The notes beneath the pieces are model-generated. The model was not told where the DNA came from. It worked only from the letters and a program-made list of their open reading frames with translations, and did no database searches. The position numbers and the translations under genes were made by a program. 64,000 nucleotides of DNA from Acaryochloris sp. CCMEE 5410 (lineage in GTDB: Bacteria > Cyanobacteriota > Cyanobacteriia > Thermosynechococcales > Thermosynechococcaceae), in assembly GCF_000238775.2 (NCBI RefSeq), contig NZ_AFEJ02000001.1, positions 496,001 through 560,000 of the forward strand. The letters run 5' to 3'. Shown here piece by piece: positions 30,009-44,877 of this stretch (its first letter is position 1; each line of letters opens with the position of its first letter).

Positions 30009-30061
30009 CTTGTCGGTAATCAGGCGTTCAGATTCTGCAGAAGGCATCTCAAAGATGAGAA

Positions 30062-30086
30062 GTGTTTGATCTGACTGCCTGACAGA
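30062..30086. repeat. left target duplication and inverted repeat of IS4-type element
   Basis: GTGTTTGAT (30062-30070) is repeated exactly at 31383-31391 and is the 9-bp target duplication; it is followed directly by the 16-bp terminal repeat CTGACTGCCTGACAGA (30071-30086), the exact reverse complement of 31367-31382. Confidence 0.93.
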
Positions 30087-31382
30087 TCTTTGTATTCCAT
30101 AGCTCATAAAGCTTTGCACTGTAGAGAGCGGATACGAGAGAACCAGATTTTGTTGTAGTGTTTCTTTTGAGCTTTTTTAGAGGCAAAACACGGTTGCGGA
30201 TCCTTGGTGAATAAGGGGACTGGCATCAACAACTCCCGTCCTTTATGGACCACCCCCTTGAGCCACCGCAATCCAATCTTGAGATAGCTAATGCCTCTGT
30301 GCCAATGGGGATCAACCTGTTGGCGTAGCCCTTTAATATGAACAGCCATCCCCTGAGCCGTGCTGTATAGCAGTGCCACAGCAGCAATCAGGTACAGCCT
30401 CTCCAGAGCATCAGCACAGCGAATTTTCGACTCTTCAAGCTCAAACACACCAGATTTACTATCGAGGAATAATTCTTCCACCCGAAACCTCAAGGCGTAT
30501 TGCCACAAGGTTTGTAACGAGGGTGATTCATCTGTAATCACTGCCCATGGTTCTTTTACGCCTCGGATATTCGCCAGTACCAAATTGCACCGATAGAGGC
30601 CATCATCCCAAAGCCCGACATTACGGTAGAGGAGAGCTTCTCCTTTGGATGGCCATAACCTACGGACTTCTCTTGGACATTGACGGGGGCCATGGAGAAG
30701 GACATCACATGGGATACGCAGACAGTAATGCCAACGGCTCTGCTGTAACCAGCTCATCAGTTGATGGTTCGCGAACCCACGATCTGCTAACAACATGACA
30801 TCTGGATGCTGCCGTAATAACCAACGGGCCTGACGCAATAGCGGTTGATATTCCTCAAAAGCAACCGCCGCACTCTTGTGCTCTAATACTTTCCATAACA
30901 ACGGTACTGCTCTGCCACAGCAGACAACGGATACATGAATCATGCAGTATTCATTCCATAAAACCGTGGTATCCATCGCTAGGTAAAGGCGATGGGTTCG
31001 CCAGTTCTTAAGCGCTAGAAGGACCAAAGGGACATACAGTTTGTGGACATCAATGAGCGGATTGCACAGAAAGCGTTGCCAGCGACGCTCGACACTTTGG
31101 GCTTTTTTTGCTCGGCAGGGGACATAGGATTCCCAAGCAGATAAGCATAATCGTTCACTGCAGATTAAGGCGCTCACCATCCATCCCAGGGTCATGAGAT
31201 GACGCAAATCTCGATAATGGCTGTGTTGACGTAAAAAGGAGAACAGTTGACGATAAATTTGGGTGGAGCCTGACATTTGAGTAACGCTGATTTGTGCTTA
31301 AATCTAGCTTCACATGTCGCTCCACTCTTTTCTCAAAGACTATGAAAATAAAGGCTTTGAGATACTTCTGTCAGGCAGTCAG
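30071..31382 (-). mobile_element. IS4-family insertion sequence, apparently intact
   Basis: A 1312-bp element with 16-bp perfect inverted repeats, a perfect 9-bp target duplication and one uninterrupted transposase gene on the minus strand. All parts needed for transposition appear present, so it is probably recent and possibly active. It inserted about 60 bp upstream of the minimal mscS gene, between that gene and a small membrane ORF, and may have displaced or supplied regulatory sequence. Exact IS name cannot be given without a database. Confidence 0.92.
30104..31276 (-). CDS. IS4-family DDE transposase
   Basis: A 390-residue transposase. The DDE residues can be placed: first Asp in LYLAMDTTVLWN, second Asp in VMLLADRGFANHQL, and Glu in the IS4 signature Y-R-E-K region, LRFRVEELFLDSKSG, where the Arg-3-Glu-6-Lys spacing holds. 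The N-terminal 80 residues are Arg/Trp-rich and would bind the ends. The C-terminus is basic. The frame is uninterrupted, consistent with an active enzyme. It fills nearly the entire element, leaving 33 bp before one end and 106 bp before the other. Confidence 0.92.
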   Translation of the reverse strand: MSGSTQIYRQLFSFLRQHSHYRDLRHLMTLGWMVSALICSERLCLSAWESYVPCRAKKAQSVERRWQRFLCNPLIDVHKLYVPLVLLALKNWRTHRLYLAMDTTVLWNEYCMIHVSVVCCGRAVPLLWKVLEHKSAAVAFEEYQPLLRQARWLLRQHPDVMLLADRGFANHQLMSWLQQSRWHYCLRIPCDVLLHGPRQCPREVRRLWPSKGEALLYRNVGLWDDGLYRCNLVLANIRGVKEPWAVITDESPSLQTLWQYALRFRVEELFLDSKSGVFELEESKIRCADALERLYLIAAVALLYSTAQGMAVHIKGLRQQVDPHWHRGISYLKIGLRWLKGVVHKGRELLMPVPLFTKDPQPCFASKKAQKKHYNKIWFSRIRSLQCKAL

Positions 31383-31391
31383 GTGTTTGAT
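31367..31391. repeat. right inverted repeat and target duplication of IS4-type element
   Basis: TCTGTCAGGCAGTCAG (31367-31382) mirrors the left end; GTGTTTGAT (31383-31391) is the second copy of the 9-bp target duplication. Confidence 0.93.
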
Positions 31392-31442
31392 TGTTGCTTG
31401 AGGATCAAAATCGATGTTGAACGATATCGATAGGGGAGAGGA

Positions 31443-31949
31443 ATGATGAATAACAGTATTTCATCCCTTATTCAAAGTCTTATTCATTTTGTCCCAAAGG
31501 CAGTCTCTAGCCTGCTTATCTTATTGGGGTTTTGGCTGATCAGTCTAGTCATCCAAAAGATTATCCGTCGTCTAGGAAAGCGAAGCCATCTTGATCAAGA
31601 CATTGTGAATCTGATTCGTCAGGTTGCCACGGCGGTCATCATCATATTTGGTATTACCGTTGCACTCGGTACGATGGGAGTCGATGTATCGGCAATTGTC
31701 GCAGGTCTTGGCTTGACAGGCTTTGCCCTGGGCTTTGCGCTCAAAGATGTTCTCTCTAACTTGTTATCCGGCATTTTGGTTTTAACGTACCGCCCTTTTG
31801 TTCGTGGGGATTGGATATCAGTATCTGGCTTAGAAGGAACAGTTCACGAGATCGATTTGCGTTACACGACCTTAGAAACACCAGACGAAAGGATTTTGAT
31901 CCCAAACTCAACACTTTTCACAAATCCAATTACTGTGAAGAAAGCATGA
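31443..31949 (+). CDS. minimal MscS-type mechanosensitive channel
   Basis: A 168-residue MscS-family protein. It has two transmembrane segments, the pore-lining third helix with its Gly/Ala pattern (AGLGLTGFALGFALKDVLSNLLSG) and the start of the beta domain (GDWISVSGLEGTVHEIDLRY, then ILIPNSTLFTNPI), but stops just where the C-terminal alpha/beta domain of MscS should begin. Compare the full-length paralogue at 44878-45846. Short MscS forms exist in bacteria, so this may be natural rather than truncated. Ribosome site GGGGAGAGGA directly precedes ATG ATG. The IS4-type element is 60 bp upstream. Expected role: pressure release at hypo-osmotic shock. Confidence 0.85.
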   Translation: MMNNSISSLIQSLIHFVPKAVSSLLILLGFWLISLVIQKIIRRLGKRSHLDQDIVNLIRQVATAVIIIFGITVALGTMGVDVSAIVAGLGLTGFALGFALKDVLSNLLSGILVLTYRPFVRGDWISVSGLEGTVHEIDLRYTTLETPDERILIPNSTLFTNPITVKKA

Positions 31950-32107
31950 CCATTTACTTTGAGTCAAACTTATTTCTTATAGTTTTTATTTTGCGGCTTT
32001 GGATGATCTTTTACTTATCCATAACTGGTGAATCAAAGTGTCGAAGAGTCTTATTGAGTAAAGTCGTGACTATGGCATGTTGCTCTATATGTCAGCTCAA
32101 TCCATAA

Positions 32108-32141
32108 AAAAGGCCCCCAACTTATAAGTTGGGGGCCTTTT
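32108..32141. terminator. perfect 34-bp palindrome, bidirectional terminator
   Basis: The sequence from AAAAGGCCCCCAACTT to its mirror image is fully self-complementary (17 bp each side), G/C-rich in the arms and bordered by A6 on one side and T4 on the other. It is a textbook intrinsic terminator and can act in both directions: for transcripts from the minimal mscS side and for the minus-strand hsp20 remnant. Confidence 0.9.
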
Positions 32142-32190
32142 GCTAGTCACAGAAATCTATCTAACAAATTTCTGATCTTGATAATCCAGT

Positions 32191-32495
32191 TTAACTGTAA
32201 CTAAACTCGGATACGTATCGATTGTTGTTTTCTTGAGGATCTTCGTAACGCCGCTCCCCTCGAATGACAACAACATCGCGAGTTGAGCTAATGTCCAAAT
32301 CTTCCCGGTCGATGCCAGGAACTTCAACTTTTAGCATGAATTTATCACTGTGGTCTGACAATTCATCTAAAGGTTGAAAATGTGAGCTTGGCGATGGATT
32401 TAAGTCTGACAGTTCCCAAATAACCTATCGATTTGACGACGCATTCTTTCTATTTCTGAGAGCACTTGCCAATGAACAATTGCTATATATTGCAA
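32191..32495 (-). pseudogene. hsp20 (small heat-shock protein) remnant
   Basis: Reading leftward, the frame gives HWQVLSEIERMRRQIDRLFG, the usual N-terminus of cyanobacterial Hsp20, then shifts one base near 32415 and continues ELSDLNPSPSSHFQPLDELS, followed by the alpha-crystallin start KFMLKVEVPGIDREDLDIS and VVVIRGERRYEDPQENN. It ends with SEFSYS and a TAA at 32191-32193, where a normal protein would go on for about 50 residues through the conserved LPVEV and I-x-I/V region. No ATG is present at the expected start; TTG at 32495 is the nearest candidate. A one-base frame change plus loss of the C-terminal half makes a functional chaperone impossible. Confidence 0.82.
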
Positions 32496-32881
32496 TTTCT
32501 CAATTTACAAATTTATTACATTCTTATACCAGCAAATTCAGTACAAGAAATCAAGATTTTTTTGAAATTTATCACTTTTTTAATAGGTCAAAAGCATGAG
32601 TTTCATGGAGATGCGAACTAAATGCAATCGCCTATATTTAAAGAGATATTGCACAGAAGCTATTTAACAAAACTAACGTTGTTTTTTATCCAAAAGAATT
32701 GGTGAGTCATATAACAACACCTAGAAAAAATAAGATTAACTTTAGCCAAGAAGATTGACTATTGGGATACCTCACTCAAACTAAATGAAATATATCTCTT
32801 AGATCTATGAGACAGAAAATCTTTATGACTTGAACTATAAGAACAATCAATTTTTTCATCTTAATTCAATTTGGCTGCATC
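32496..32881. other. AT-rich intergenic region
   Basis: About 385 bp with long A/T runs between the hsp20 remnant (its former promoter side) and the 3' end of the phosphatase gene. No gene, repeat or known regulatory element recognised; the hsp20 control region may be fossilised here. Confidence 0.35.
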
Positions 32882-33523
32882 CTAAGTACCAAGCCGCTGT
32901 TGCAACACCTCAGACATATAGGAACGGTCTCCAAGACACTGTAATAGAGGACCATGTTCGTCAAATTTGACGATGCTGATTGAGCCTGCCAAACAGTCAA
33001 TGCGATCGCGGTAGCGTCCCAAATCAATCCCCAATAGCTGGCAAAGGATGATCCGAATCGTAGTTTTGTGAGATACCACCAGTACAGGTCCTTCTATACA
33101 GGTGTCTTCAATCTCCGCAATTACCGGCATGGCGCGATTGGCTACCTCAACCGCTGTTTCACCTCCGCCGGTTGGAGCATTCCAGGCGGGTTCCGTCATC
33201 CAACGGATGTAGTCTTCTAAATATTGTGATTTTACGTCATCTCTGGCCTGTTCTTCCCAGTCACCGAAACTCATCTCCCTTAAACCTTCTCGAAAGTGCG
33301 GCTTCATCCCTGACTTCTCACAAAGGGGGGTGACTGTGGCGACGGTGCGTTTCATGGGGCTGGTAAAAATAGCCTGCCAGGGTACGTGAGCATAAGCTTG
33401 GGCAAACTCAGAAGCCATGACTTTGCCTTGCTCAGTTAACTCTAAATCTAGTTCACCACAGAAACCACCACTTAAACTGAACGAGGTCTCTCCATGTCGT
33501 AAAAAATAAACTTGTAGCCCCAT
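32882..33523 (-). CDS. histidine phosphatase family protein
   Basis: A 213-residue protein of the phosphoglycerate mutase-like (histidine phosphatase) superfamily. The phosphohistidine motif VYFLRHGETSF is near residue 8, a second conserved region is FTSPMKRTVATVTPL, REMSFGDWEE carries the acid, and the second His is in VVSHKTTIRII. It may act as a phosphoglycerate mutase-like phosphatase, or on sugar phosphates or other small phosphoesters. The ATG at 33523 gives the normal N-terminus; the GTG at 33535 is less likely. Monocistronic. Confidence 0.88.
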   Translation of the reverse strand: MGLQVYFLRHGETSFSLSGGFCGELDLELTEQGKVMASEFAQAYAHVPWQAIFTSPMKRTVATVTPLCEKSGMKPHFREGLREMSFGDWEEQARDDVKSQYLEDYIRWMTEPAWNAPTGGGETAVEVANRAMPVIAEIEDTCIEGPVLVVSHKTTIRIILCQLLGIDLGRYRDRIDCLAGSISIVKFDEHGPLLQCLGDRSYMSEVLQQRLGT

Positions 33524-33622
33524 CTTTAAAATCACTCTCTACAATACATTGAGTTTTCTCAGGCGTAATTGATCAAAAGGGCTACTGATTTATAGCCCAT
33601 TATCAGGCAAGCTGTTGTGAAT

Positions 33623-34660
33623 TTAATTCTCCATAGATTCTTGCAGTTGATTCACCTCTTGCAGGGTAGCGACAGAATCTCGTTGGCTGGAGCGTTGAAT
33701 ATAATTGAGTTTGAGTTCCTCTAGTAAATCTGAGAGGAGATGCTGTAATTCTTGTTGGGTTGCAGATTGACTCAGTTCTTGCCGCAGCACTTGTTTGAAA
33801 GACTGGGCTAACTGTTCAAACAGTTGACGATTGGTGGGATCTTGATAAGAGGTGGTTAAGACTTCATAGGTGGATTGAGCTAATATGTCCGCTAACTGAT
33901 CGGTGAGATCCATGGGCAATACTGAAATCCCTGGGACTTGCTCAATGGTTTTGTAGATATCGGAGCGCTTGATCGTACCTGCAAGACTTTGATGGAGCAG
34001 CATCTCCAGCTCCGGTTGCAGTTGGGGCATGACCTGCCCAAAGGTCAGTTGAATGAGACGATCCGCGATCGCATCCAAGGTATCACTGCCCCCCACATGA
34101 ATGTAGTTATCGCTTTGCAGCAAGAGTCGAGCAGCTTCCCCTTGCTTGACGGCGTCCTGGGTTTGGTTCACCAGTCGCACCAGCATAAACATGGACACCC
34201 GATCCGCCAGATAGGCAATGGGTTCATGGGTAATATGGGTAATGGCCGCTTCAACATTGGCTAAGCCTGAACGATGAATATAGACCGCCGCAGGGATCAT
34301 ACGAAGCCATCGCCAGAAGGGGAACAGCAGTAACAGATTGTACCAGCGGCGCAGCATCGCTTGGGGCCAAGTGAGGGTCGATCGCTGGCGACTCAACAGC
34401 CAAGTTTCGCGCAGGTATTCTAGACCAAAAAATGCAGTGAAATATCGGTCGATAGGCCACAATCCCCCTTGGTATATGGGGTCGTATCGATACACCATTT
34501 TGGGAAACCATTGGACAAGCTGCAATCGCACTGATCCATAGGAGAGGTGAAACAGCACCAATCCCAAATTGACTAAGACCACTACAGTCACAACGAGCCG
34601 CCACCAGCCTGTGAACTGGTGGCGAGATTGCTGTTGATTCGAGGCGTGTGTTATGCCCAT
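33623..34660 (-). CDS. conserved membrane protein, 345 aa
   Basis: One clear hydrophobic segment at about residues 20-41 (WWRLVVTVVVLVNLGLVLFHL) and a second, weaker one near 105-125 (LLLLFPFWRWLRMIPAAVYI); the rest is a long helical, Leu/Gln-rich cytoplasmic region with heptad-like spacing toward the C-terminus. No family name was recognised, although the composition resembles conserved cyanobacterial membrane proteins of unknown function. Its ATG starts two bases after the stop of the HdeD-like gene, so it is translationally coupled to it. The pair implies a joint membrane or acid-stress role. Confidence 0.72.
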   Translation of the reverse strand: MGITHASNQQQSRHQFTGWWRLVVTVVVLVNLGLVLFHLSYGSVRLQLVQWFPKMVYRYDPIYQGGLWPIDRYFTAFFGLEYLRETWLLSRQRSTLTWPQAMLRRWYNLLLLFPFWRWLRMIPAAVYIHRSGLANVEAAITHITHEPIAYLADRVSMFMLVRLVNQTQDAVKQGEAARLLLQSDNYIHVGGSDTLDAIADRLIQLTFGQVMPQLQPELEMLLHQSLAGTIKRSDIYKTIEQVPGISVLPMDLTDQLADILAQSTYEVLTTSYQDPTNRQLFEQLAQSFKQVLRQELSQSATQQELQHLLSDLLEELKLNYIQRSSQRDSVATLQEVNQLQESMEN

Positions 34661-34662
34661 TC

Positions 34663-35244
34663 CTAGCTAGCTTGAGGCTGTTGAGGACCTGGACCAAATA
34701 GATCCGTACCTGCTAAGCCGGATATAACCATTGGCCATCCGTCAGAGATTAGGTTTAAGCCTACCAATAGACCTAATATCCAGGCAGAGTCAGCAGGCCA
34801 GCCTAACATAATGGAAAGACCGAACACAACGGCAAACACACCGCTCCCTAGGGTCCAATACCAGCCAGATTCTTCCTCTCGCATCCATATCGCCATAATG
34901 GCTTGCAGAATTCCTTCCATAAGAACGAACGCGCCGACTGCGAGGGTTAGGCTCAGAACACCCTGTAAGGGATAAAACAGTAGCAACAGACTGGCACCAA
35001 TATAGCCTGACCCTAACAAGAGCTTAAAGGCTAAGCTTTTGATGCTAGCGCGAGGCCGATACGCATAAATCAGTTGAATAATCCCGCTGCTAAAAAAGAC
35101 GCCTGCAATCACCAGTTCGGTGGCCAAAGTGCTAACAAAGGGCATAGCAATAGCCACGAATCCTAAGACGACGAGGAGTGCTCCGAGAGCGATAGACCAT
35201 TTCTCCAAAAAGGGGTCATTATTTTGTATATCTTGATTACTCAT
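34663..35244 (-). CDS. HdeD/DUF308 family membrane protein
   Basis: A 193-residue protein with six hydrophobic segments in three pairs, each with the DUF308 rhythm (ALGALLVVLGFVAIAMPFV; VIAGVFFSSGIIQLIYA; LGSGVFAVVFGLSIMLGWP). HdeD in Escherichia coli is an acid-resistance membrane protein; many homologues are uncharacterised. AAGGA precedes the ATG. It is the first gene of a tight pair with the downstream 345-residue membrane protein (2 bp gap). A second HdeD-type gene is at 49966-50577. The C-terminus is Pro/Gln-rich. Confidence 0.87.
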   Translation of the reverse strand: MSNQDIQNNDPFLEKWSIALGALLVVLGFVAIAMPFVSTLATELVIAGVFFSSGIIQLIYAYRPRASIKSLAFKLLLGSGYIGASLLLLFYPLQGVLSLTLAVGAFVLMEGILQAIMAIWMREEESGWYWTLGSGVFAVVFGLSIMLGWPADSAWILGLLVGLNLISDGWPMVISGLAGTDLFGPGPQQPQAS

Positions 35245-35386
35245 GTAATAAATCCTTTTGTATTGCGAGACTTTAGACTCTTAAGTTCGCTTAACAAGCT
35301 ATCTTTATCCTCGCTGAAAGGGCTGGGTTACGGATCTACCCCAAGAGGGAAAGGTAATGGGCCCAGAGTCTAACCTGGGATGTACC

Positions 35387-36268
35387 CTAAGCTTTAGCAA
35401 ATAACTGCCGAGGTTGCTTAGCCATCGCCTGTAAGCGTTGAATCCGTTCTTCGGTGGATGGATGGGTTCGAAAGAGATTTTGCAATCCTTCTCGACTCAG
35501 GGGATTAATAATCAGCAAGGGAGACATGGCCGGGTTGCCATTGATGGGAATTTGACGACCTACGGTTTCTAGTTTGTTAAGGGCATTCGCCAAGGCAGTT
35601 GGGTTCCCCGTAATTTGGGCTGCCCCTTCATCAGCAGCAAATTCGCGGGTACGTGAAATTGCTAATTGAATAAGGGTGGCAGAGAGGGGAGCCAACACCA
35701 AGAGAAACAGCAACACAATTGGATTATTGCCACGGCGATCATCCCGATTGGCAGGGTAATAGAGGCCGCCAAAGCTAAGCATGCGCCCCACAAAAGTGAC
35801 TGCACCCCCTAAGGTGCCAGCCACAGCCTGAGTAAGGGTATCGCGGTTGCGAATATGAGTGAGTTCGTGGGCAATCACCCCTTCCAGTTCTTTAGTCGAG
35901 AGTAGGTCGATAATGCCTTCGGTGACAGCGACAGCAGCATGTTGTGGGTCGCGGCCCGTGGCAAAAGCATTTGGAGATTTTGTGGGAATGATAAACAGTT
36001 TGGGCATAGGTAGCTGAGCGCGATCACACAAGCGAGCCACTGTATCGTAAAGTTTGGGGGCATCAGATCGCTGCAGGGGTTGGGCCTGATAAGCAGCCAA
36101 TGCCGCCTGATCAGAGAAGTACCAGGACCCCAAGGTTGTGACCGCAGAAATCCCCAGGCCTAGATAGAGGCCCTGTTCATTGCCCACGAGGATATAGCTG
36201 ACTAGAACAATTAGGCCACTCATCAAACCCAGAAGAGCAGCCGTTTTTAGTTGATTAAATGGAAACAT
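35387..36268 (-). CDS. htpX: HtpX-type M48 zinc metalloprotease
   Basis: A 293-residue membrane protease. It has two N-terminal hydrophobic segments, the zinc motif HELTH (His134, Glu135, His138) and a distal Glu in EFAADEGAAQ as third ligand, with further hydrophobic segments around residues 145-200. HtpX cleaves misfolded inner-membrane proteins and is induced by heat and other membrane stress. The catalytic set is complete. It is separated by about 140 bp from the HdeD-like pair on the same strand and could be linked to it. The C-terminus FRTHPSTEERIQRL is typical of the family. Confidence 0.93.
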   Translation of the reverse strand: MFPFNQLKTAALLGLMSGLIVLVSYILVGNEQGLYLGLGISAVTTLGSWYFSDQAALAAYQAQPLQRSDAPKLYDTVARLCDRAQLPMPKLFIIPTKSPNAFATGRDPQHAAVAVTEGIIDLLSTKELEGVIAHELTHIRNRDTLTQAVAGTLGGAVTFVGRMLSFGGLYYPANRDDRRGNNPIVLLFLLVLAPLSATLIQLAISRTREFAADEGAAQITGNPTALANALNKLETVGRQIPINGNPAMSPLLIINPLSREGLQNLFRTHPSTEERIQRLQAMAKQPRQLFAKA

Positions 36269-36348
36269 GGAGTTTGGATCGAATCAGTTTAAAAGTATTC
36301 TTATTTTTTCAAACTCTTGGATGGCAGCACTCTATCCTGGGAGAGAAT

Positions 36349-36837
36349 TTAGCATTTTGAGGCTTGAGGCGATTGGGGGCTGGTCAGTTGGGAGATCAGG
36401 CGAGACTGGGATGATTTGAGCGATCGCAGACTCAATGCTTTACAAGGAATTCGATCTGCAATCAGGGTAGTCACAGGTCCAGAAATGACTTCTAATTCTG
36501 CGGTAGATAAGGTTTGAAAGGTGGCACATTGGCCTGGAAGAACGACTTTCTCCCAATGCAGATTGGGGAGATTGCTAATCCTAATGATTTGGGGATGCAA
36601 GGTGTCATTCCGATACAAACATTCAATGGGATGACTTTTGGGTTTAGTATTTAGTCGAATCGGTTGGCGAGGAGAGTGATGATACCGCGGGGGTTGGGAC
36701 GGTTGCATAGAGGGAGAGCTAAAACGATGGATGAATGTAGGGGGAAAGAATTCACGGCAGCGATCGCAATACCAATACGGATGATTCCCACAAATATGCA
36801 ATAAAAGATCGCTTGAGCATAAAAGACAGGACGCCAT
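36349..36837 (-). CDS. zinc-ribbon plus DUF1830 cyanobacterial protein
   Basis: Residues 5-28 form a treble-clef or zinc-ribbon-like knuckle (CLLCSSDLLLHICG, then CDRC), joined by a Pro/His/Ser-rich linker to a DUF1830-like domain (IECLYRNDTLHPQIIRISN; EKVVLPGQCATFQTLSTAEL). DUF1830 is found in cyanobacteria, function unknown. Fusion to a zinc knuckle suggests nucleic-acid or protein binding. No strong Shine-Dalgarno precedes the ATG. The following small DUF2949-like gene is 30 bp upstream in the transcription direction, so they may be one operon. Confidence 0.7.
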   Translation of the reverse strand: MASCLLCSSDLLLHICGNHPYWYCDRCREFFPPTFIHRFSSPSMQPSQPPRYHHSPRQPIRLNTKPKSHPIECLYRNDTLHPQIIRISNLPNLHWEKVVLPGQCATFQTLSTAELEVISGPVTTLIADRIPCKALSLRSLKSSQSRLISQLTSPQSPQASKC

Positions 36838-36869
36838 GATTAGGAAGAGAACATCAATAAGCCGATTTT

Positions 36870-37088
36870 TTAGCCTAGAAAATCATTGCAAGATACATGA
36901 TGAGTTTCCAACCATGCAAACATTTCATTTAACTGGTTGAGTGAAACAAGTCCGTACTGCCATAGAGCAATAGATAATCTACAAGGGAAAGCCCCAACCT
37001 TTTTGAGCGCGAGTTGAACTGACTCTGGCGGGATATCTAACTCATTTTGTAAATAAGCAATAAACTGATCGATCTTGAGTGATTTCAT
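36870..37088 (-). CDS. DUF2949 small cyanobacterial protein
   Basis: A 72-residue helical protein with the DUF2949 pattern: FIAYLQNELDIPPESVQLAL, then ALWQYGLVSLNQLNEMFAWL. DUF2949 is a cyanobacterial family of unknown function, often in several copies per genome. No strong ribosome site was seen. It lies just upstream of the zinc-ribbon/DUF1830 gene on the same strand and may be co-transcribed. Confidence 0.75.
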   Translation of the reverse strand: MKSLKIDQFIAYLQNELDIPPESVQLALKKVGAFPCRLSIALWQYGLVSLNQLNEMFAWLETHHVSCNDFLG

Positions 37089-37416
37089 AATCTAGAAAAA
37101 ACAAATAGGCTATAAAATCTACCTATTATTCAATAAGAGTTTATTTGGGAAATCATCTATCGCTAGGCAGAGAATTTAATTATTGCTTAATATCTCTTCA
37201 ATAGATATTTTATTGCTTGCCAATATTAAATTTATCTATTTGAGATAAGCAGAATTTTCATTACATAACTACCTAAAACTGGCTACCTATCTAAAGAAGG
37301 ATTATCAGATTTCTTGCCTCATCCTTTTGATAGTTTATAATTCGCTAATTTAAGCTTAGATTTGAGTTTAATCGTTCAGTATTTATTAGTTGCAAGTATA
37401 TTAAGGAGGAAACCTT
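37089..37416. other. AT-rich divergent promoter region of psbT-like gene
   Basis: About 330 bp of A/T-rich sequence between the divergent DUF2949 and PsbT-like genes. It should contain both promoters. The ribosome site AAGGAGGA at its right end serves the psbT-like gene. No repeat or operator was identified with confidence. Confidence 0.4.
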
Positions 37417-37557
37417 ATGGACGTAATTGCCTATGTATTTATTCTGGCTTGCCTGATTGGTTTATTTTTCTTTGCCGTCTTCTTTAGAGAAAAGCCTACT
37501 GTGGATAAAATCCAAAGCCGAAGCTTTCGAGAGTCTTCTCAGGCAACTAGAAAATAG
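37417..37557 (+). CDS. psbT: PsbT-like photosystem II protein with C-terminal extension
   Basis: A 46-residue single-helix protein, too short for most gene callers. Residues 1-29 match cyanobacterial PsbT closely: MDVIAYVFILACLIGLFFFA, then VFFREKP, where canonical PsbT has FFREPP. PsbT sits at the photosystem II monomer-monomer interface and stabilises dimers and the acceptor side. Here about 15 extra residues follow (KIQSRSFRESSQATR), making it longer than the usual 30-35. There is no psbB next to it, where psbT normally lies, so it is probably a paralogue. It has an excellent ribosome site (AAGGAGGA, 5-6 nt) and is followed immediately by a strong terminator, so it is a one-gene transcript. 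Substitution of one conserved Pro and the extension may alter dimer contacts. Confidence 0.82.
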   Translation: MDVIAYVFILACLIGLFFFAVFFREKPTVDKIQSRSFRESSQATRK

Positions 37558-37564
37558 AATCGTA

Positions 37565-37603
37565 AAAACCAATGCACCGATATATTGTCGGTGCATTGGT
37601 TTT
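37565..37603 (+). terminator. intrinsic terminator of psbT-like gene
   Basis: AAAACCAATGCACCGA (37565-37580) pairs with TCGGTGCATTGGTTTT (37588-37603) around a 7-nt loop, 7 bp after the stop codon. A 16-bp stem ending in T4 is a strong intrinsic terminator. Confidence 0.92.
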
Positions 37604-37616
37604 ATTAATATGTGTT

Positions 37617-37681
37617 TATAATGACTTCTCAAATACCCTTGGGTACTAAGGCGCCAATTCGGTCAGGGAAGTCGTTTTTTT
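37617..37681 (+). promoter_or_regulatory. possible small promoter/RNA element between two terminators
   Basis: A consensus -10 box TATAAT (37617-37622) is followed by nested inverted repeats: GACTTC (37623-37628) with GAAGTC (37668-37673), an inner TACCC-GGGTA pair (37634-37645) and a GGCGCC palindrome (37651-37656), then a run of seven T (37675-37681). This could be a very short terminated RNA or a second terminator. If TATAAT is used, the start would fall inside the first arm, so the interpretation is not settled. Confidence 0.3.
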
Positions 37682-37695
37682 CGATAACTGAGCAT

Positions 37696-37735
37696 TAATT
37701 AAGAATGTCCAGTCTCACCTGGACATTCTTAATTA
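37696..37735 (-). terminator. 17-bp perfect hairpin after DUF2294 gene
   Basis: TAATTAAGAATGTCCAG (37696-37712) pairs perfectly with CTGGACATTCTTAATTA (37719-37735) around TCTCAC. It abuts the stop codon of the minus-strand DUF2294 gene and ends in an A/T-rich arm, the form of an intrinsic terminator. Confidence 0.75.
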
Positions 37736-37736
37736 T

Positions 37737-38120
37737 TTAGGAAGCTCTCCTGGATGCCTCCATATTGGGACTGTGACTTAATACAGCAACTACAGCGGTA
37801 CTACCTGTCTTTTCCATCTTAATGCTCCCAATATCCAATACATTAACATCAAGGCACTCTTGAATAATGGTCTTTAACTCAGGCAAGAATGCCTCTTCAA
37901 GATCCGAGCGGACATGGGCAGCTACAAGATTTTCATTGTTTCTTAGCAAAAATCTCTCTAGTTTAGTTGCCGATTCTTCTATGATGATTGTGAGTTGAGT
38001 ATCCGTAATCTTGCATGATATTTTCTTGGGATTATGCCCTAGGGTTGCGCGATAGTGCTTGCGAATACGCTGACCTAGAAAACGTTCGAATTGGCCGATT
38101 GTGAGTGAATGATCTGACAT
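37737..38120 (-). CDS. DUF2294 family protein
   Basis: A 127-residue alpha/beta protein with the DUF2294 pattern: a helical start (FERFLGQRIRKHYRATLGHN), strands around ISCKITDTQLTIIIEES, a helical middle with Leu-Glu-Arg and a C-terminal strand VVAVLSHSP. DUF2294 proteins occur in cyanobacteria and other bacteria; their function is unknown. The ATG at 38120 gives the family's normal start; the longer frame to 38162 is less likely. A second member, differing substantially, is at 39741-40214. A strong hairpin follows the stop. Confidence 0.72.
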   Translation of the reverse strand: MSDHSLTIGQFERFLGQRIRKHYRATLGHNPKKISCKITDTQLTIIIEESATKLERFLLRNNENLVAAHVRSDLEEAFLPELKTIIQECLDVNVLDIGSIKMEKTGSTAVVAVLSHSPNMEASRRAS

Positions 38121-38814
38121 GGTTCTCCGTTGGGTAAGACCGCTACCAACAAGCCGAACCAATCTATGAATTCGAGTTGAATCTAGTTGTGACGTATGCT
38201 AATTCGCACCGAGACAACCAAAACAGCTCAAAGACAGTACGAATTTGCGAGTTGCTGGTAACGGTGCTTAAATTGATTCCCATAAAAAGATAATAGGCAA
38301 AAAAGAACTATTTTAGCAGTTAGGAATTTTCCGTAGCTTAGTGGGGAGCGGTAAACCCCAGTATCCGTTCTAACGGGAAAGGTTGAACGTTTGCTGCGGA
38401 TTTCTCCGTCAAGGAAATCAATCAAGCTTTTTATAACTACACCATTTAGAATAATATTTAGCCTCTTTCAGGCGTAACTACCTATCGAATGAGTCAAACC
38501 AACAGAATACTCCTCCTGTAGATAGAGTAGTAAAATCTTCAAAAGAAAATCGACCGCGTGATGGTGCATTATATCTCGTGACGACAGTCCCATCTTTCCG
38601 AAAGCATGGTGCGCTCAAATTAAAGAATATTTTGTAGCACTTGTGTGCGTGCAAGCGAACTTTGCCACAATCTATATCTGGAGAATGAGGTGAAATCAGT
38701 GTGTGGTTCTTAAAGTGGAAGACCAGCAGCAAATAAGTAACTCTTCCTATATTCGATAGATTGAATCTTTAATGCTGCTTTGTGATCTTTAAGTGTTGGA
38801 AGCATTTTGCCATA
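38121..38814. other. intergenic, no supported gene
   Basis: About 690 bp between divergent genes. Short minus-strand frames at 38228-38425 and 38478-38732 were considered and not accepted. A stretch around 38330-38410 has tRNA-like wording (TAGCTTAGTGG) but no complete cloverleaf was found. Probably holds promoters of the flanking genes and possibly decayed sequence. Confidence 0.35.
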
Positions 38815-39387
38815 ATGACCCCTCAATTTTTCGCACCAAAACCTTTAAGCGAGCTGATACATAAATTACCTAAAACTGATCAAGATGATCTAGAGCAGGG
38901 ACAGGTGGTTATCTCGGGTTCTGCGGGAGAGTATGTTGCCAGAACCGTGCTACAAGCTTCACCACAGGCGGCCTGGGAAGTACTGACGGACTACGACAAC
39001 TTTTCCAGCTTTTTACCTAATGTGACTGACACCCAGGTGTTGGACCAAACAGGACCCAAGACAGTCGTGGAGCAAACCAACACTTGTCAGATTTTGCTAG
39101 CTAACATTGAATCAACGGTTCTGACCGAAAATGTGGCAACAGATGCTGGCAGGATAAAATTTCGCTTATTAGATGGCGATTTGGATCAGTTAGACGGATA
39201 TTGGCAGATCTTTCCCTTGTCGAATCCCGCCGATCATATTCTGCTTGTACAAGTTGTCACTGCTGAAGCGAACATTGGCATCCTAAACGGAGGATTCTAT
39301 GACATTTTTGAAGGAACCCTGCGAAACAATCTGGAGGCCATTCATTCCGAAATTAATCGAAGAGTATCGACCGATCAGATTGCCTAG
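38815..39387 (+). CDS. SRPBCC/START-fold (cyclase/dehydrase-like) protein
   Basis: A 190-residue protein of the SRPBCC/polyketide cyclase-like type. The core reads VARTVLQASPQAAWEVLTDY, then DNFSSFLPNVTDTQVL, the typical start of the domain with its Trp-Glu-Val-Leu-Thr-Asp-Tyr signature, continuing through ILLVQVVTAEAN and a long C-terminal helix. These domains bind hydrophobic ligands such as lipids, quinones or polyketides (Coq10-like); the ligand here is unknown. The start is ATG 38815 or the in-frame GTG at 38782. Its stop overlaps by three bases the stop of the convergent gene (CTAG). Confidence 0.8.
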   Translation: MTPQFFAPKPLSELIHKLPKTDQDDLEQGQVVISGSAGEYVARTVLQASPQAAWEVLTDYDNFSSFLPNVTDTQVLDQTGPKTVVEQTNTCQILLANIESTVLTENVATDAGRIKFRLLDGDLDQLDGYWQIFPLSNPADHILLVQVVTAEANIGILNGGFYDIFEGTLRNNLEAIHSEINRRVSTDQIA

Positions 39388-39605
39388 GAATTAGATTGCT
39401 CGAAGCGATAGTCAGCATTAAGCCAGCACTGGGGCAAGGATTCTCCAGAGGGAAAACTCAGTTTAGCTTTGTCAAAATTAGTGGGAGGCTGTTCTTCCTC
39501 TCCTGCCTGAAGTCGCCCCTTGACTTGGCTGCGAACAGGGTTTGCCAAATCCTCCACCTGAGTAATTTTAACCAATGCCCCTGTTTGCAAATCCTTCAAA
39601 AACAT
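39384..39605 (-). CDS. small conserved hypothetical protein, 73 aa
   Basis: A polar 73-residue protein starting at ATG 39605 (MFLKDLQTGALVKITQVEDL) with GGAGAGG about 7 nt upstream, so the start is well supported. The N-terminal half is strand-rich (GALVKITQVEDLANPVRSQV), the C-terminal half contains PSGESLPQCWLNADYRF. A short OB- or SH3-like barrel is possible, but no family was recognised. Its TAG shares bases with the TAG of the convergent SRPBCC gene (CTAG at 39384-39387). Confidence 0.65.
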   Translation of the reverse strand: MFLKDLQTGALVKITQVEDLANPVRSQVKGRLQAGEEEQPPTNFDKAKLSFPSGESLPQCWLNADYRFEQSNS

Positions 39606-39740
39606 AAATTTCCTCTCCATAAACTGCATAAATACATCCTACGGAGAGACCGACTCACTCAGGATCTAACTTTGGGATGAACGTTGATCTCACCCCTTCG
39701 ATAGATTTAATTTGGGTTCTGCTGGTTACTGTCTAGCGTT

Positions 39741-40214
39741 TCAATCGCCCAGAATAGGCTTACGCTTGGATGTGGATTTGGGAATAGACTCTGGGTTGCG
39801 GACTGCTGGTGACTGCGCTAAGACAGCAACTACCCCCGTACATTTTTCCGCCAACGTCGTATCGCAAAACAACACCAGAACCTTCGTTCCTAGAATTTTT
39901 TCTAGAAGTACAGATAATTGGGGCCGTAAAAACTTGTGAATTGCTTGCCGAGCCATCTGTGCGGTCGCTGCTTTGTCCCTTGTGACTAAGAACTGCTCTG
40001 GTAAAGTCACTGAGTCCTCAATGACGATAGCCACACTGTTGCTGAACAGCTGGCACGTGATGCGTTGCGGTCGATGGGACAGGTGCCGAAACCAGAAGGA
40101 CTGGATCCCTTGGACGATAGCCCGCTCCTGTTCTCCACAGGTTAGCAAATGGGAATCAGCAGAGTTATTGGACTGACGAGTTTCCTCTATCAAAGGGGAT
40201 GCAGGCTTAGCCAT
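39741..40214 (-). CDS. DUF2294-like protein, second copy
   Basis: A 157-residue relative of the gene at 37737-38120. The shared pattern is visible: FWFRHLSHRPQRITCQLFSN, VAIVIEDSVTLPEQFLV, a helix with LRPQLSVLLEKILGTKVLVL and VVAVLAQSP near the end. The N-terminal 30 and C-terminal 20 residues are polar extensions absent from the other copy. Function unknown. No strong ribosome site precedes the ATG. Two members of the family within 2.5 kb, on the same strand, suggest a duplication. Confidence 0.68.
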   Translation of the reverse strand: MAKPASPLIEETRQSNNSADSHLLTCGEQERAIVQGIQSFWFRHLSHRPQRITCQLFSNSVAIVIEDSVTLPEQFLVTRDKAATAQMARQAIHKFLRPQLSVLLEKILGTKVLVLFCDTTLAEKCTGVVAVLAQSPAVRNPESIPKSTSKRKPILGD

Positions 40215-40531
40215 ACTATTTTTTAAGTTTGGGATGTTATTAAAGGTTGGTAACGATGAGAGGCAATTATTCGTAGATGGTTAATAGTTAATTCTGCTAA
40301 CTAAATTTTATCTTTTCGTTAAATAACGTGACAATTATTCAGACGCCATGTTCCTACATAGAAAAATCCCTCAAACTTATGACAAGAAGGGATTTCGTGT
40401 CCTTAATAAGAATAATCTGCTCGTAAATTCTTCAGCTTTTTTTTAATTTTTTAGCGCATCAATGCATCATGAGCATCGCTCCCCTGATCTCTGATCCAGA
40501 CCATCAAGGGAGCTTACTTAGAATCTGCCCA
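40215..40531. other. intergenic, no gene seen
   Basis: About 315 bp, partly A/T-rich, between the promoter side of the DUF2294-like gene and the 3' end of the secreted coiled-coil gene. A loose inverted pair AAATCCC (40364-40370) / GGGATTT (40389-40395) could form a weak hairpin. Nothing else recognised. Confidence 0.35.
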
Positions 40532-40993
40532 CTAGAGATCGTCTAAAACATTTTCGGCTTTTTCCTGCAAAGTCTCACCCAATTCCTCGGCGGAATCTTG
40601 GACTTGGCCGATATCTTTCTGGGCGCGCTTTTTGGTTCTCAAGGCAGCCTCTTCAAACTTTTGGGTATCGGTACTTGCTTTGCGCTTGGCAGTCTTAACC
40701 ACCCCTGACGTGGCATCCTGGATGTCCGTCGTTACATTAGTCACGGTACGGGTGAGCTGCTTATCTAGTTGTCCTTTAGTTTTGGCAAAATCTCCAGCTT
40801 TATTCTGAGTGGCTGCCATACTCTGGCGGCTCACTGTAGCCAAGGAAGGGCGTAGGGCAGGAGCAGTTTGGAGCTGGAAGTCTGCTAGAACAGGTGCGCT
40901 CAGCATTCCTAGCTCGGCTATGATGAGGGTCAAAACTAACAGTAGATTGGCGAGTAGTTTGGCCAGTTTGATTTGAATACGAGAGCGATTCAT
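40532..40993 (-). CDS. secreted helical (apolipoprotein-like) protein
   Basis: A 153-residue protein with a signal peptide (hydrophobic core LANLLLVLTLIIAELGMLSA, cleavage near PVLADFQ). The mature part is long amphipathic helix with repeats of Lys, Thr, Asp and Glu (KTKGQLDKQLTRTVTN; VKTAKRKASTDTQKFEEAAL; QDSAEELGETLQEKAE), reminiscent of LEA-like or apolipoprotein-like proteins. It may protect envelope or membrane under drying or salt. The ATG at 40993 follows GGAGAAG and is preferred to the one at 41008. It is just downstream of the CAAD gene on the same strand. Confidence 0.65.
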   Translation of the reverse strand: MNRSRIQIKLAKLLANLLLVLTLIIAELGMLSAPVLADFQLQTAPALRPSLATVSRQSMAATQNKAGDFAKTKGQLDKQLTRTVTNVTTDIQDATSGVVKTAKRKASTDTQKFEEAALRTKKRAQKDIGQVQDSAEELGETLQEKAENVLDDL

Positions 40994-41058
40994 AATGTTC
41001 TTCTCCATGTTAGGGGTGGAATTGATGGGATTGGTAGCGGGGAAAGGCGAGCTAAACG

Positions 41059-41508
41059 TTACTCTGCCTCGAGATGCACCGTTGCATCACCAATCACGCG
41101 TCTTTTCAGACGACGATACGCTTGAATTAATTCTTGGCGAGTTTCGGCATATCTTAGGTATCGCCAGGCAAACCATCCAGCGTATCCCAAGCCAGTTATT
41201 TCCAGTAAAGGTTTAACGAGAGGGATAGCATTAAGGACATTGAGGATACCGTTTGCGATCGCAAGTCCCAGCAACCCCGCCAAAGCCATTCCTAGCGCTA
41301 TTAAAGGTTTTTGGTAAATCTCAAACACCTCCTGGGCTTGCCTCGACACCTGATCTATGTAGTAGTGAAGCTTAACGCCAAAGCCTTGCACTCCTTCAGT
41401 TACTGAGGGATCTGCTGAGGGCAGTCGCCGGGACAAGGAATCCGTGGTCACTTCTTCAGCAGATTCTACTTCTGCAACGGTGGCAGTGGTTTCTAGTTCG
41501 GTACTCAT
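41059..41508 (-). CDS. CAAD/CURT1-like thylakoid membrane protein
   Basis: A 149-residue cyanobacterial CAAD-domain protein, related to plant CURT1, which curves thylakoid membranes. An acidic, Thr/Ser/Glu-rich N-terminal 45 residues precede an amphipathic helix (YYIDQVSRQAQEVFEIY), two transmembrane segments (LIALGMALAGLLGLAIANGI; LLEITGLGYAGWFAWRYL) and a basic C-terminal helix (RQELIQAYRRLKRRVIG). The ATG at 41508 has an ideal ribosome site (AGGAGG, about 8 nt). In cyanobacteria such proteins are linked to thylakoid biogenesis and stress tolerance. Located between a DUF2382 gene and a secreted helical protein on one strand. Confidence 0.85.
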   Translation of the reverse strand: MSTELETTATVAEVESAEEVTTDSLSRRLPSADPSVTEGVQGFGVKLHYYIDQVSRQAQEVFEIYQKPLIALGMALAGLLGLAIANGILNVLNAIPLVKPLLEITGLGYAGWFAWRYLRYAETRQELIQAYRRLKRRVIGDATVHLEAE

Positions 41509-41631
41509 TGCACTGTTCCTCCTAATAAAAACTCGATCATTGCTGTGGTAAAGCTGGAATAGGGATACCCTGCCCCTAGAGACAGGGAAACTCACTTAAG
41601 ATATAGGAGCCCCAGAGGGCTAATTAGAGCG

Positions 41632-42462
41632 TTAGCGATTATTCAATTCCTTCGAATCATTGATGTCTAGCTCTTCCCGTCGAACCGTTTCTTTCGCATC
41701 AACGGTGCTTCGATCGACTTCTTTCCGCACACTGACTTTTTCACGCACAAAGGCTTGCTTCTCAATGTCTGCCGTTTCCTCATGGACTGCAATTCGAGCC
41801 ACTTCTCCTTCTTGAAACGTTGCTTCGCCAGGTGCGACCGCTTGAGGGTTAGTGGCGGGTGTTCGTTCAATCACGACCCGTTCTTTCTCAACAGGAACAG
41901 AGACCTCTGCCGTATCAGTGGTGACCCGCTTGCCCACGGTAACCTCGTCCGTTTGATGTCGTTCTTTGCGAGCAATCAACCTTTCCTCATAGAGTTTAAT
42001 CTGCTGGTGGTCAGACTCTGAGGGGTTGTAAAGGTCGGGATCATGTTCTCCATAGCGATAGGAATGCTGATCGTATGTCTTAGCTGGCCCTATGATGCCT
42101 GCAGGCCGATAAGCTTTACGAACTCGTTCTTCGTAGTCGAAGTCGACGGTCATATCATCTTCATAGTCAGGCATATTTTCCAACTGCTCTTTGCTAGTCA
42201 AGCCAATGGCATGGATGCGTTCCAGGCTTGGACCAAATCGACATCGCCCAAACGGGACCAACACTTTTTTGCCAAAAATCCAAAAACCAGTATCAACGAC
42301 GAGGTAGCGCATGCGGCCAGTTTCGTCAATTAAAACATCATGGACAGACCCTACTTTGTCCTCTGTCGCTCCTGCATAGACATCTAAACCTTTAATATCT
42401 TTTCCTCCAAAAGCACTATTTCGATAGTCTGGATCAAAATCGTAAAGTTTATAAAGTGCCAT
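41632..42462 (-). CDS. PRC-barrel plus DUF2382 (YsnF/AvaK-type) protein
   Basis: A 276-residue cytoplasmic stress protein. The first 80 residues form a PRC-barrel (DIKGLDVYAGATEDKVGSVHD; MRYLVVDTGFWIFGKKVLVP), followed by a polar linker and the DUF2382 domain (IKLYEERLIARKERHQTDEV; VSVPVEKERVVIERTP; VREKVSVRKEVDRSTVDAKE, with VRREELDI at the end). DUF2382 proteins such as YsnF and AvaK are general-stress proteins; PRC-barrels bind RNA or quinone-type partners in other systems. GGAGG precedes the ATG. A divergent paralogue lies just upstream on the same strand. Confidence 0.92.
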   Translation of the reverse strand: MALYKLYDFDPDYRNSAFGGKDIKGLDVYAGATEDKVGSVHDVLIDETGRMRYLVVDTGFWIFGKKVLVPFGRCRFGPSLERIHAIGLTSKEQLENMPDYEDDMTVDFDYEERVRKAYRPAGIIGPAKTYDQHSYRYGEHDPDLYNPSESDHQQIKLYEERLIARKERHQTDEVTVGKRVTTDTAEVSVPVEKERVVIERTPATNPQAVAPGEATFQEGEVARIAVHEETADIEKQAFVREKVSVRKEVDRSTVDAKETVRREELDINDSKELNNR

Positions 42463-42717
42463 AAATTTAATCCTCCAAGCTCTGAAAAATACGTCACTTT
42501 AAAACATATTTTTTTTTAATATTTTTATCGTCCTTCTTAGGGAAGATCTTTCTTCTAGGAAGGATAGAAATTGAATCAATAAAGATGGTGTTGCATTCAA
42601 TAAGAGGAATCAATTGATGCGACCCACCCATGCGAGTCATCACCAAAGAAACCGCACCCAGGCACTGATATCGATTTTTGCAGATATGGCTATCTTTCTT
42701 GCCCAAGGGAAGAGGAA

Positions 42718-43602
42718 CTAAGCGCTTGAGTTTTTATGGGTTTGAATATCAAGCGTTTCGCGACGGACCGTATCTTGAAAATGAACGACACTCTGTTCAA
42801 CTTCCTTTCTGATATTGATGTCCTGATGCACTGATGCTTGCGTATCTCCAACGGCTACTTCCTGATAAATATCCAGCCGAGCAACTTCTCCATCTTGAAG
42901 TGGTGTTTCACTGACGATGAGACGAGTGGATGCATTGCTTAAAGTGGTGATTTCAATGACGATTTTCTCCTTTGCCACCGGAACGGATACATCATCAATA
43001 TCTGAAATGATTTTCTTTTGAATTGATATTTCGCCTGATTTTATCCGATGTTTTTCCCCAACTAACTTTTCTGTATAAAGTTGTAGCGAAACATAGTCAT
43101 CAGAAGATTGCTCAGACAAAACATCTACATCTGTAAATTCAGATGAACATCTGGCTGTAGAAGGGGGAAGTTTGGGTAGCACAGAGGAGTCAGAGGAATT
43201 ATCTTCTGACTCCTCTACTGTTGCAATGGACTCTCGCAGCAAAGCTCTGTAGGCGGCAATCACTTTCTTCTCGTAGTAGGGATCGACTATAGCACTGTTG
43301 TCATAAGTCGGGATGGAGTTTATTTGCTCTTTTTCTTCAAAGATCGAGGTGCTCACATAATGCTCGTCGAAATTGATTCGACAATAAGCAATGGGGAGCA
43401 ATATTCTTTTTTTAGGAAACCAAAAGCCACTATCAATCACTAGATAGTGGATGGTTCTCGTTTCATCTAAGAGGAGAGAATGAACCCAACCAATTTTTTC
43501 GCCAGTTTGCCCAATACAAACATCGATTCCTTTTATATCTCTACCACCAAACAGTGCCTCTCGATAGTGAGGCACTAATACTTCTAGCTTATACAGAGCC
43601 AC
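42718..43602 (-). CDS. PRC-barrel plus DUF2382 protein, divergent second copy
   Basis: A 294-residue paralogue of the downstream gene (similar barrel: DIKGIDVCIGQTGEKIGWVH; IHYLVIDSGFWFPKKRILLP; similar tail: VRRETLDIQ). The linker between barrel and DUF2382 differs, being longer and rich in Ser/Glu (SEDNSSDSSVL). Alignment with the paralogue, which begins MALYKL, places the start at the GTG of 43602 (VALYKL), with GGAG about 9 nt upstream; the longer frame begins at a TTG. It has more hydrophilic residues in strand positions, suggesting looser constraint. The gap to the paralogue is about 250 bp, so a tandem duplication with separate promoters is likely. Confidence 0.85.
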   Translation of the reverse strand: MALYKLEVLVPHYREALFGGRDIKGIDVCIGQTGEKIGWVHSLLLDETRTIHYLVIDSGFWFPKKRILLPIAYCRINFDEHYVSTSIFEEKEQINSIPTYDNSAIVDPYYEKKVIAAYRALLRESIATVEESEDNSSDSSVLPKLPPSTARCSSEFTDVDVLSEQSSDDYVSLQLYTEKLVGEKHRIKSGEISIQKKIISDIDDVSVPVAKEKIVIEITTLSNASTRLIVSETPLQDGEVARLDIYQEVAVGDTQASVHQDINIRKEVEQSVVHFQDTVRRETLDIQTHKNSSA

Positions 43603-43815
43603 CGCCCTAATCTCCAATTTCTAACTCAGAACGTGTTTCACTGAAGTTCTTCGCTGAGGGTTGAACTTAAACAATATAATCCTGAGCTATTTTAGGTAGA
43701 CTCATTGGGCAGTTCGACACAACGGTCGAGACTGACAACTGGGTTCAAACCAGCAACATTGAGATCTTATTGTTTGGGCACAACTGCATTGAGACACAAC
43801 CCACAACCCCTACCC

Positions 43816-44718
43816 TTACTTTATGAAGGCCTGGCCCTGACGAATATAGGTTTGAACGTTGCGAATCGCTTGTGATGCATAGGAATCTCCAGGACGCTCA
43901 TTGAGGGCCTTCTGGAATCGGCGCAACGCCTGCTGGTAAGCCCCTCTCTCCGTCGCATCATAACCAAGGCGCATATAGCGGTCGTAGGCTGATTCAGCAG
44001 CAGCGGTTTCCTGTTCTCGCTTCCCTCCCTTAAGAACATCTACTGCATTCCAGTAAGCGAGGGTGGCTTGTCTGTCGTTGGGGCGAAAGTTGAGCGCACT
44101 CCTAAAGTGATCGGCGGCAGTTCGGTGGTCTTGGCGCTGAGCTGCTGCGTAACCAAGGCGCATATATCGATCGTAGGGAAGTTCTCCCGGATAAAAATTT
44201 GGAATTGTGACTTGTGCTGCTGGCGCTTTCCCTTGACCTCGCTGAATATAGGTTTTAACGTTGCGGGCTGCTTGGGTGGCAAAGTAGTCATTGGGACGCT
44301 CAGCTAAAGCCCGTTCAAAATTAATCAGTGCCGTTTGGTAGTCTCCTGACTCCGTGGCATCGTAGCCAATTTCCATATAGCGATCGTAGGCACTTTCGGG
44401 TTGAGCGGTATTGTTTCCCTCTGCCCGCTTAGTAATGGCATCGCGACTGTTCCAATAGGCAATGGTGGCATCGCGATCGCGCGGCTTCTCAAACAGGGCA
44501 TTGCGAAAATAGAACGCGGCTGTTTGGTAATCATCTCGTTGGGCAGCCGCGTACCCTATGCGCATGTAGTAGTCATAGGTTGATTCACCGGAGCGCAGCG
44601 TTTCGGTGGTGGATAGGGGAACAGGGGTCGGAGCCTGGGCTTGAGCAGGGGATGCGATGGGCATCAAGGTCAGGGCAAATAGGGTAGGAATAGCAGAGAT
44701 AAGGGTCGTTACTTTCAT
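43816..44718 (-). CDS. secreted four-unit TPR protein
   Basis: A 300-residue protein with a signal peptide (hydrophobic LISAIPTLFALTLMP, cleavage near SPAQAQAP) and four tetratricopeptide-like units of about 65 residues, each opening with Y-D-x-Y-M-R/E-x-G-Y-x-A: STYDYYMRIGYAAAQRDDYQ, SAYDRYMEIGYDATESGDYQ, LPYDRYMRLGYAAAQRQDH and SAYDRYMRLGYDATERGAYQ. Units 1 and 3 resemble each other, as do 2 and 4, so a two-unit module was duplicated. TPRs mediate protein-protein contacts; the partner is unknown. The ATG at 44718 follows GAGGTG. Divergent from the MscS gene at 44878. Confidence 0.88.
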   Translation of the reverse strand: MKVTTLISAIPTLFALTLMPIASPAQAQAPTPVPLSTTETLRSGESTYDYYMRIGYAAAQRDDYQTAAFYFRNALFEKPRDRDATIAYWNSRDAITKRAEGNNTAQPESAYDRYMEIGYDATESGDYQTALINFERALAERPNDYFATQAARNVKTYIQRGQGKAPAAQVTIPNFYPGELPYDRYMRLGYAAAQRQDHRTAADHFRSALNFRPNDRQATLAYWNAVDVLKGGKREQETAAAESAYDRYMRLGYDATERGAYQQALRRFQKALNERPGDSYASQAIRNVQTYIRQGQAFIK

Positions 44719-44877
44719 AAACACCTCACTAATGTTGGGCCAGTGAAGATTTTTCTTCACCCCCAATATCTCAGAGGTTTAGGCTTGAAACCTCTATCCT
44801 ACGTTTGGTCTTGGGTGGTGCTCTGGTCTGTCTGAAGGAAGATTCTCTCTCAAGAGAGAGGTTATATCCGCGTTGTT

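Follow-up and report, generated by a model that had tools for sequence, protein, structure and literature searches.

An extended PsbT paralogue encoded away from psbB in the chlorophyll d cyanobacterium Acaryochloris sp. CCMEE 5410

Here we describe psbT-ext, a 46-codon gene of Acaryochloris sp. CCMEE 5410 that encodes a homologue of the photosystem II (PSII) subunit PsbT and is one of two extended copies that this genome carries beside its psbB-linked psbT. The gene is genuine and under purifying selection, and it encodes a conserved variant of an established PSII subunit, one copy of which has already been deposited as a chain of a published structure. Acaryochloris is a chlorophyll d cyanobacterium, and its PSII is run on that pigment. 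The reading that we favour, with somewhat better than even confidence, is that psbT-ext supplies an extra, long-tailed PsbT that in some PSII centres would take the place of the 30-residue form.

The psbT-ext gene and its family

The window analysed here is a stretch of 64,000 nucleotides (C1:496001-560000); positions below are counted from its first letter. The features around psbT-ext are as follows.

34663 to 35244, minus strand: gene for a DUF308 (HdeD-like) membrane protein (Pfam PF03729, 71.6 bits), which co-occurs with psbT-ext
36870 to 37088, minus strand: DUF2949 gene, divergent from psbT-ext
37314 to 37341, plus strand: promoter-like site TTGCCT-16-TATAAT, weakly evidenced
37404 to 37409, plus strand: Shine-Dalgarno sequence AGGAGG, 7 nt ahead of the psbT-ext ATG
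37417 to 37557, plus strand: psbT-ext, 46-residue PsbT paralogue (residues 1-28, PsbT core; residues 29-46, divergent basic tail)
37565 to 37603, plus strand: intrinsic-terminator-like hairpin with a perfect 16-bp stem and a 7-nt loop
37737 to 38162, minus strand: MpsC-family gene, convergent with psbT-ext; a 67% identical relative lies beside psbT-ext in genome G003

The open reading frame starts with ATG and ends with TAG, and its product is MDVIAYVFILACLIGLFFFAVFFREKPTVDKIQSRSFRESSQATRK. An earlier note on this DNA had described a 46-codon gene with a perfect ribosome site and, behind it, a 16-bp stem; a good ribosome site and the stem are both present. The stem is a perfect inverted repeat (arms 37565-37580 and 37588-37603) with a stable predicted fold: RNA 37555-37620 has a folding energy of -28.5 kcal/mol (z -7.4), equalled by 0 of 200 shuffles. 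A simple terminator scan reported 0 terminators and did not list this hairpin, probably because the run of T lies inside the stem. Two promoter-like sites were found against a shuffle mean of 2.4, which is no excess, and Rfam at the gathering threshold gave no match in window positions 30000-45000, nor in six loci. Overall, the view that psbT-ext has signals of its own is supported.

The identification of the product as PsbT had been made by motif and is confirmed by profile search: the protein matches Pfam PsbT (PF01405) with 40.7 bits (cut-off 22.4; E 2e-10) over model positions 1-27 of 29. Against the NCBIfam PsbT equivalog NF008825 it scores 32.8 bits, below the 55-bit cut-off, and we therefore claim membership of the Pfam family instead. 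That cut-off was missed by all eight proteins scored, including four psbB-linked Acaryochloris PsbTs (30.3-34.5 bits) and three extended ones (32.4-33.3 bits), and a FREPP-bearing relative from another genus misses it by less than the Acaryochloris proteins do (51.4 of 55 bits). The NF008825 cut-off is thus no separator of PsbT isoforms.

As a structural yardstick we used a single N-terminal membrane helix ending in FRE, a criterion of our own drawn from the aligned family. The psbT-ext model places a helix at residues 2-25, and FREKP is present in the sequence. Model confidence is high over residues 1-20 (pLDDT blocks of 90 and 92) and lower in the three final blocks (63, 57 and 56); a second helix (residues 30-42) is predicted in the tail with low confidence. 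Foldseek returned no match to the model in the PDB, as expected for one helix. In two respects psbT-ext departs from the usual PsbT. It does not lie directly behind psbB, a placement that is usual and not defining, and at 46 residues it exceeds the usual length, again by our own yardstick in place of a curated criterion. All non-extended loci read encode 30-38 residues: the psbB-linked PsbTs of Acaryochloris have 30-31, and those of other cyanobacteria, members of the same single-helix PF01405 family, have 31-38 (49 loci).

The earlier note had also pointed to a replaced proline (FREKP) as a mark of the paralogue, and this was not borne out. Lysine occupies position 26 in 10 of 10 Acaryochloris loci read, six psbB-linked and four extended, as against Pro in 47, Thr in 2 and Lys in 0 of 49 loci from other genera (50 loci were fetched from 71 genomes; 49 were read by motif, and L084, a weak family match, was left unread). 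As far as read, Lys26 is thus a trait of the genus and no mark of psbT-ext.

Three psbT genes and a conserved extension

In the genome (8.09 Mb in 23 contigs), three psbT genes score above the Pfam cut-off, with one more match far below it, so that psbT-ext is not its only psbT. A 30-codon psbT lies behind psbB on contig C2; the second extended copy, missed by the earlier note, is a 46-codon gene at C1:1155825-1155962 on the minus strand. The CP47/CP43/Pcb family (PF00421) has 13 matches in the genome, 0 of which fall inside the window, in agreement with the claim that no psbB adjoins psbT-ext, and the C2 psbB alone is CP47-like (837 bits; next 445). The canonical psbB-psbT pair sought elsewhere in the genome is therefore the one on C2, separate from psbT-ext, and the proposal of a PsbT paralogue away from psbB is supported. 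The 30-residue PsbT encoded there is identical to psbT-ext over residues 1-28, K26 included, and lacks the extension; psbT-ext is longer by 16 residues, close to the 15 or so first claimed. Of 78 genomes searched with the PsbT family, 2 (this genome and G002) gave multiple matches above the cut-off and 3 gave none above it; in G003 (82% complete) the sole PsbT found is the extended one.

The extension is narrowly distributed. A 22-residue query spanning it found it in 3 of 388 sampled genomes of the class, at four loci, all in Acaryochloris, a genus that contributes 7 genomes to the sample; the other 385 gave no match at E <= 0.01. Named relatives from one contig scan were Acaryochloris or Acaryochloridaceae at 6 of 6 loci. 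The other three extended PsbTs are 80-91% identical to psbT-ext, the second copy of the same genome being at 91% (42 of 46 residues), and 14 of the 18 positions from 29 to 46 are invariant over the four loci. Relatives of psbT-ext were sought in records of phages and plasmids (E <= 0.01) and in viral contigs, and none was found; a phage origin thus received no support. Four of the seven genus genomes, 87-92% complete, gave the short PsbT form only, an absence of the extension that could stem from incomplete assembly. Among these four, G004 does carry the M50 gene found beside the second copy, preceded by 9.8 kb of sequence, but has neither psbT-ext nor the DUF308 gene there, which argues for a real absence at this site.

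Divergence among the copies is mostly synonymous. Between psbT-ext and the second extended copy, the core (codons 1-28) has 23 synonymous changes and 1 non-synonymous change, and the extension has 6 and 3, respectively. Residues 1-28 of psbT-ext and the psbB-linked copy are identical despite 15 synonymous changes, and the second extended copy differs from the psbB-linked one by 1 amino acid over the same residues, with 17 synonymous changes. This pattern indicates that the extended copies are old, coding and constrained. In the extension itself, amino-acid changes were compared with random expectation for six pairs (P = 0.009, 0.003, 0.07, 0.14, 0.004 and 0.0002); these tests are simple counts on pairs that are not independent, and they give significantly fewer changes in four pairs (P 0.0002-0.009) and not in the two at 0.07 and 0.14. 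Such constraint bears on the possibility that the additional psbT genes are redundant duplicates that add dosage and carry the tail as a tolerated addition. Many photosystem genes of Acaryochloris are duplicated, several copies of psbA, psbD, psbE and psbU being listed in Table 2 of PMC5295598, but the invariance of the extension and its shortage of amino-acid changes make simple redundancy quite unlikely.

A separate observation concerns the psbB-linked genes. Ahead of psbT, 6 of 6 Acaryochloris loci have a long hairpin, GAAGGCTAC...GTAGCCTTC, whose inner stem is CTTCTAA/TTAGAA (L053:6969-7130 and five homologous gaps, L048-L052); its arms lie about 105 to 40 nt upstream, and its outer nine pairs are invariant over the six loci. 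The GGCTAC..GTAGCC hairpin occurs in 0 of 49 loci from other genera (110 nt each, one only 51 nt), although different inverted repeats, 10-14 nt long, lie in this stretch at some of them. The element has no covariation support and no Rfam match, and the idea that the extended and psbB-linked genes share an RNA element was dropped, the alignment of the extended leaders being unconvincing. As to other cyanobacteria, psbT has been reported absent from Halomicronema hongdechloris (PMC6416890); a gene this short (about 30 codons) may have been missed in annotation.

Gene neighbourhoods and expression

The DUF308 gene listed above has a counterpart near each of the extended genes. Its close relatives (E <= 1e-40) occur in the same three of seven genus genomes and at the same four loci as the extension, and are missing in the other four; the three other DUF308 proteins are 86-89% identical to that of the window. 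The gene lies about 370 bp from the extended psbT and divergent from it at two loci, and about 2.2 kb away at the other two. The window locus also holds M48 protease and DUF1830 genes, and the order of M48, DUF1830 and MpsC, the three genes covered by the comparison, is kept in G003. Two MpsC-family genes are present in the window (37737-38162 and 39741-40214), 1.6 kb apart and about 31% identical, and near psbT-ext there is also a gene for a CAAD-domain protein (41059-41595), whose relative in G003 is 77% identical. The second extended copy is flanked on one side by a sensor kinase and a LuxR-type regulator and on the other by DUF308, a universal stress protein, an M50 protease, a CYP38-like isomerase and a PsbU paralogue. 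The last two adjoin (L045:11520-13310, G000:C1), and the isomerase has a PsbQ-like domain; neither a PsbU nor an isomerase relative was seen in the part of the homologous G002 locus that was retrieved.

These neighbourhoods suggest another reading, in which the extended PsbT has left PSII and become a PsbT-derived membrane microprotein that responds, together with its DUF308/HdeD-like partner, to stress in the envelope or the thylakoid. It draws on the co-occurrence of the DUF308 gene in three of seven genus genomes, on the low expression relative to psbB of a gene that is probably the second copy (see below), and on neighbours such as the M48 protease, the universal stress protein and a PRC/DUF2382 protein, which we take to be stress-type genes. 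The part that contacts PSII in PsbT, residues 1-28, is nevertheless kept with 0 or 1 changes relative to the psbB-linked PsbT despite 15 and 17 synonymous ones, and an extended form has been deposited as a PSII chain. We therefore regard a function outside PSII as unlikely.

Expression was considered through the named genes of Acaryochloris marina. In the passages of PMC5295598 available to us, AM1_5050 is the sole gene named PsbT and AM1_5046 is named a PsbU; PMC11633204 gives AM1_5046 as PsbU and AM1_5047 as a peptidyl-prolyl isomerase. Since these tags and functions fit the psbU/isomerase pair beside the second extended copy, that copy is probably AM1_5050. Its values in control, microoxic and hyperoxic conditions are 247, 61 and 97, against 10,087, 2,155 and 6,568 for psbB (PMC5295598): about 1/41 of psbB in the control, with a fall in both genes under both oxygen treatments. 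AM1_5046 tops the induction in low far-red over high white light in both strains (log2 about 5.9), and AM1_5047 also appears in the low far-red induced list of each strain (PMC11633204); a re-analysis of public data puts AM1_5046 at 31.8-fold (PMC13259208). AM1_5050 is absent from all four top-35 tables of light responses in PMC11633204, and the PSII genes named in the text of that paper as raised in strain MU13 do not include psbT.

These data allow a more specific proposal, which we put forward tentatively: that Acaryochloris exchanges low-mass subunits of PSII, the long-tailed PsbTs being condition-specific isoforms with a basic tail capping the QA side. They would perhaps work together with the PsbU and CYP38-like genes close to the second copy, the probable orthologues of which rank among the most strongly induced genes in low far-red light. 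The deposited chain T discussed below would then carry the sequence of a minor isoform, the 30-codon psbT behind psbB having been unannotated.

One further transcript was considered for the window copy. AM1_5793 of strain MBIC11017 is a 141-bp 'hypothetical' gene that, in Table 1 of PMC5295598, is the ninth most abundant transcript and rises in high oxygen. Its length fits psbT-ext, but PsbH appears to be on opposite strands in the two genomes, which would leave the strands mismatched, and the gene spacing agrees poorly; the assignment was dropped and AM1_5793 is kept as a lead.

The deposited chain T and the acceptor side of PSII

The second extended copy is identical over its 46 residues to chain T of PDB entry 7YMI, a PSII-Pcb complex of Acaryochloris marina (PMC12661325), and the chain is also present in 7YMM; an extended PsbT has thus already been deposited. 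The CP47 of the genome is likewise identical to 7YMI chain B over 506 residues. Named 'Photosystem II reaction center protein T', chain T has the length of psbT-ext and shares 42 of its 46 residues, and differs from it in four residues, in locus and in gene context, the window copy lying among M48 protease, DUF2949 and MpsC genes. For the 30-residue psbB-linked PsbT there is no exact match in the PDB; the best hit, to 7YMI chain T, spans residues 1-28 and has one mismatch. The PsbU paralogue beside the second extended gene matches 16 PDB sequences at E <= 0.001, none of them from 7YMI or 7YMM, and the entry therefore lends no support to a joint isoform set.

Taken at face value, the 46-residue chain T in 7YMI and 7YMM would mean that the extended copies provide the main PsbT of Acaryochloris PSII and that the psbB-linked gene is minor. 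The expression of AM1_5050 at about 1/41 of psbB in the control and the presence of the short form alone in four of seven genus genomes (87-92% complete) both speak against this, and the chain itself can be accounted for otherwise: only AM1_5050 is named PsbT in PMC5295598, at one place in the text, and the short gene was perhaps unannotated when the chain was named. We consider this reading very unlikely. The letters of chain T may come from a database sequence only, and with AM1_5050 some 40-fold below psbB, the sequence given for that chain in the published structure may be a minor isoform's. If the short PsbT is the major form, 7YMI chain T is a minor isoform's sequence, which is a point to check and not a finding.

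On the reading that we favour, an additional PsbT used in some PSII centres, the extended protein would insert like other PsbTs, with one helix at the dimer interface and its C terminus on the cytoplasmic side. Residues 30-46 of the tail include five basic and two acidic residues (net charge about +3). Its position behind residue 28 and its basic residues make a seat on the cytoplasmic face plausible, if the protein is in PSII. There, the basic tail would lie over the acceptor side near QA, the DE loops of D1 and D2 and the C terminus of CP43, and from that position it would protect or adjust the quinone-iron site, or else guide assembly and repair. The PsbT C terminus has been reported to cover the QA pocket (PMC5418674), and Synechocystis without PsbT has a perturbed bicarbonate environment and raised photodamage, PsbT contacting the D1 DE loop (PMC11108944). 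The long-tailed PsbT would come into use under conditions in which PsbT is not supplied mainly by the psbB operon.

The passages of the psbT and Acaryochloris literature considered here do not discuss an extended PsbT, and we make no claim that it is absent from print. As at least one A. marina transcriptome paper (PMC5295598) names one psbT only, the expression of the other copies may sit unread in public data. Which PsbT sits in the 7YMI map is a checkable point in a published structure. A conserved natural extension of PsbT at the QA side would offer a handle on acceptor-side tuning or protection in chlorophyll d PSII.
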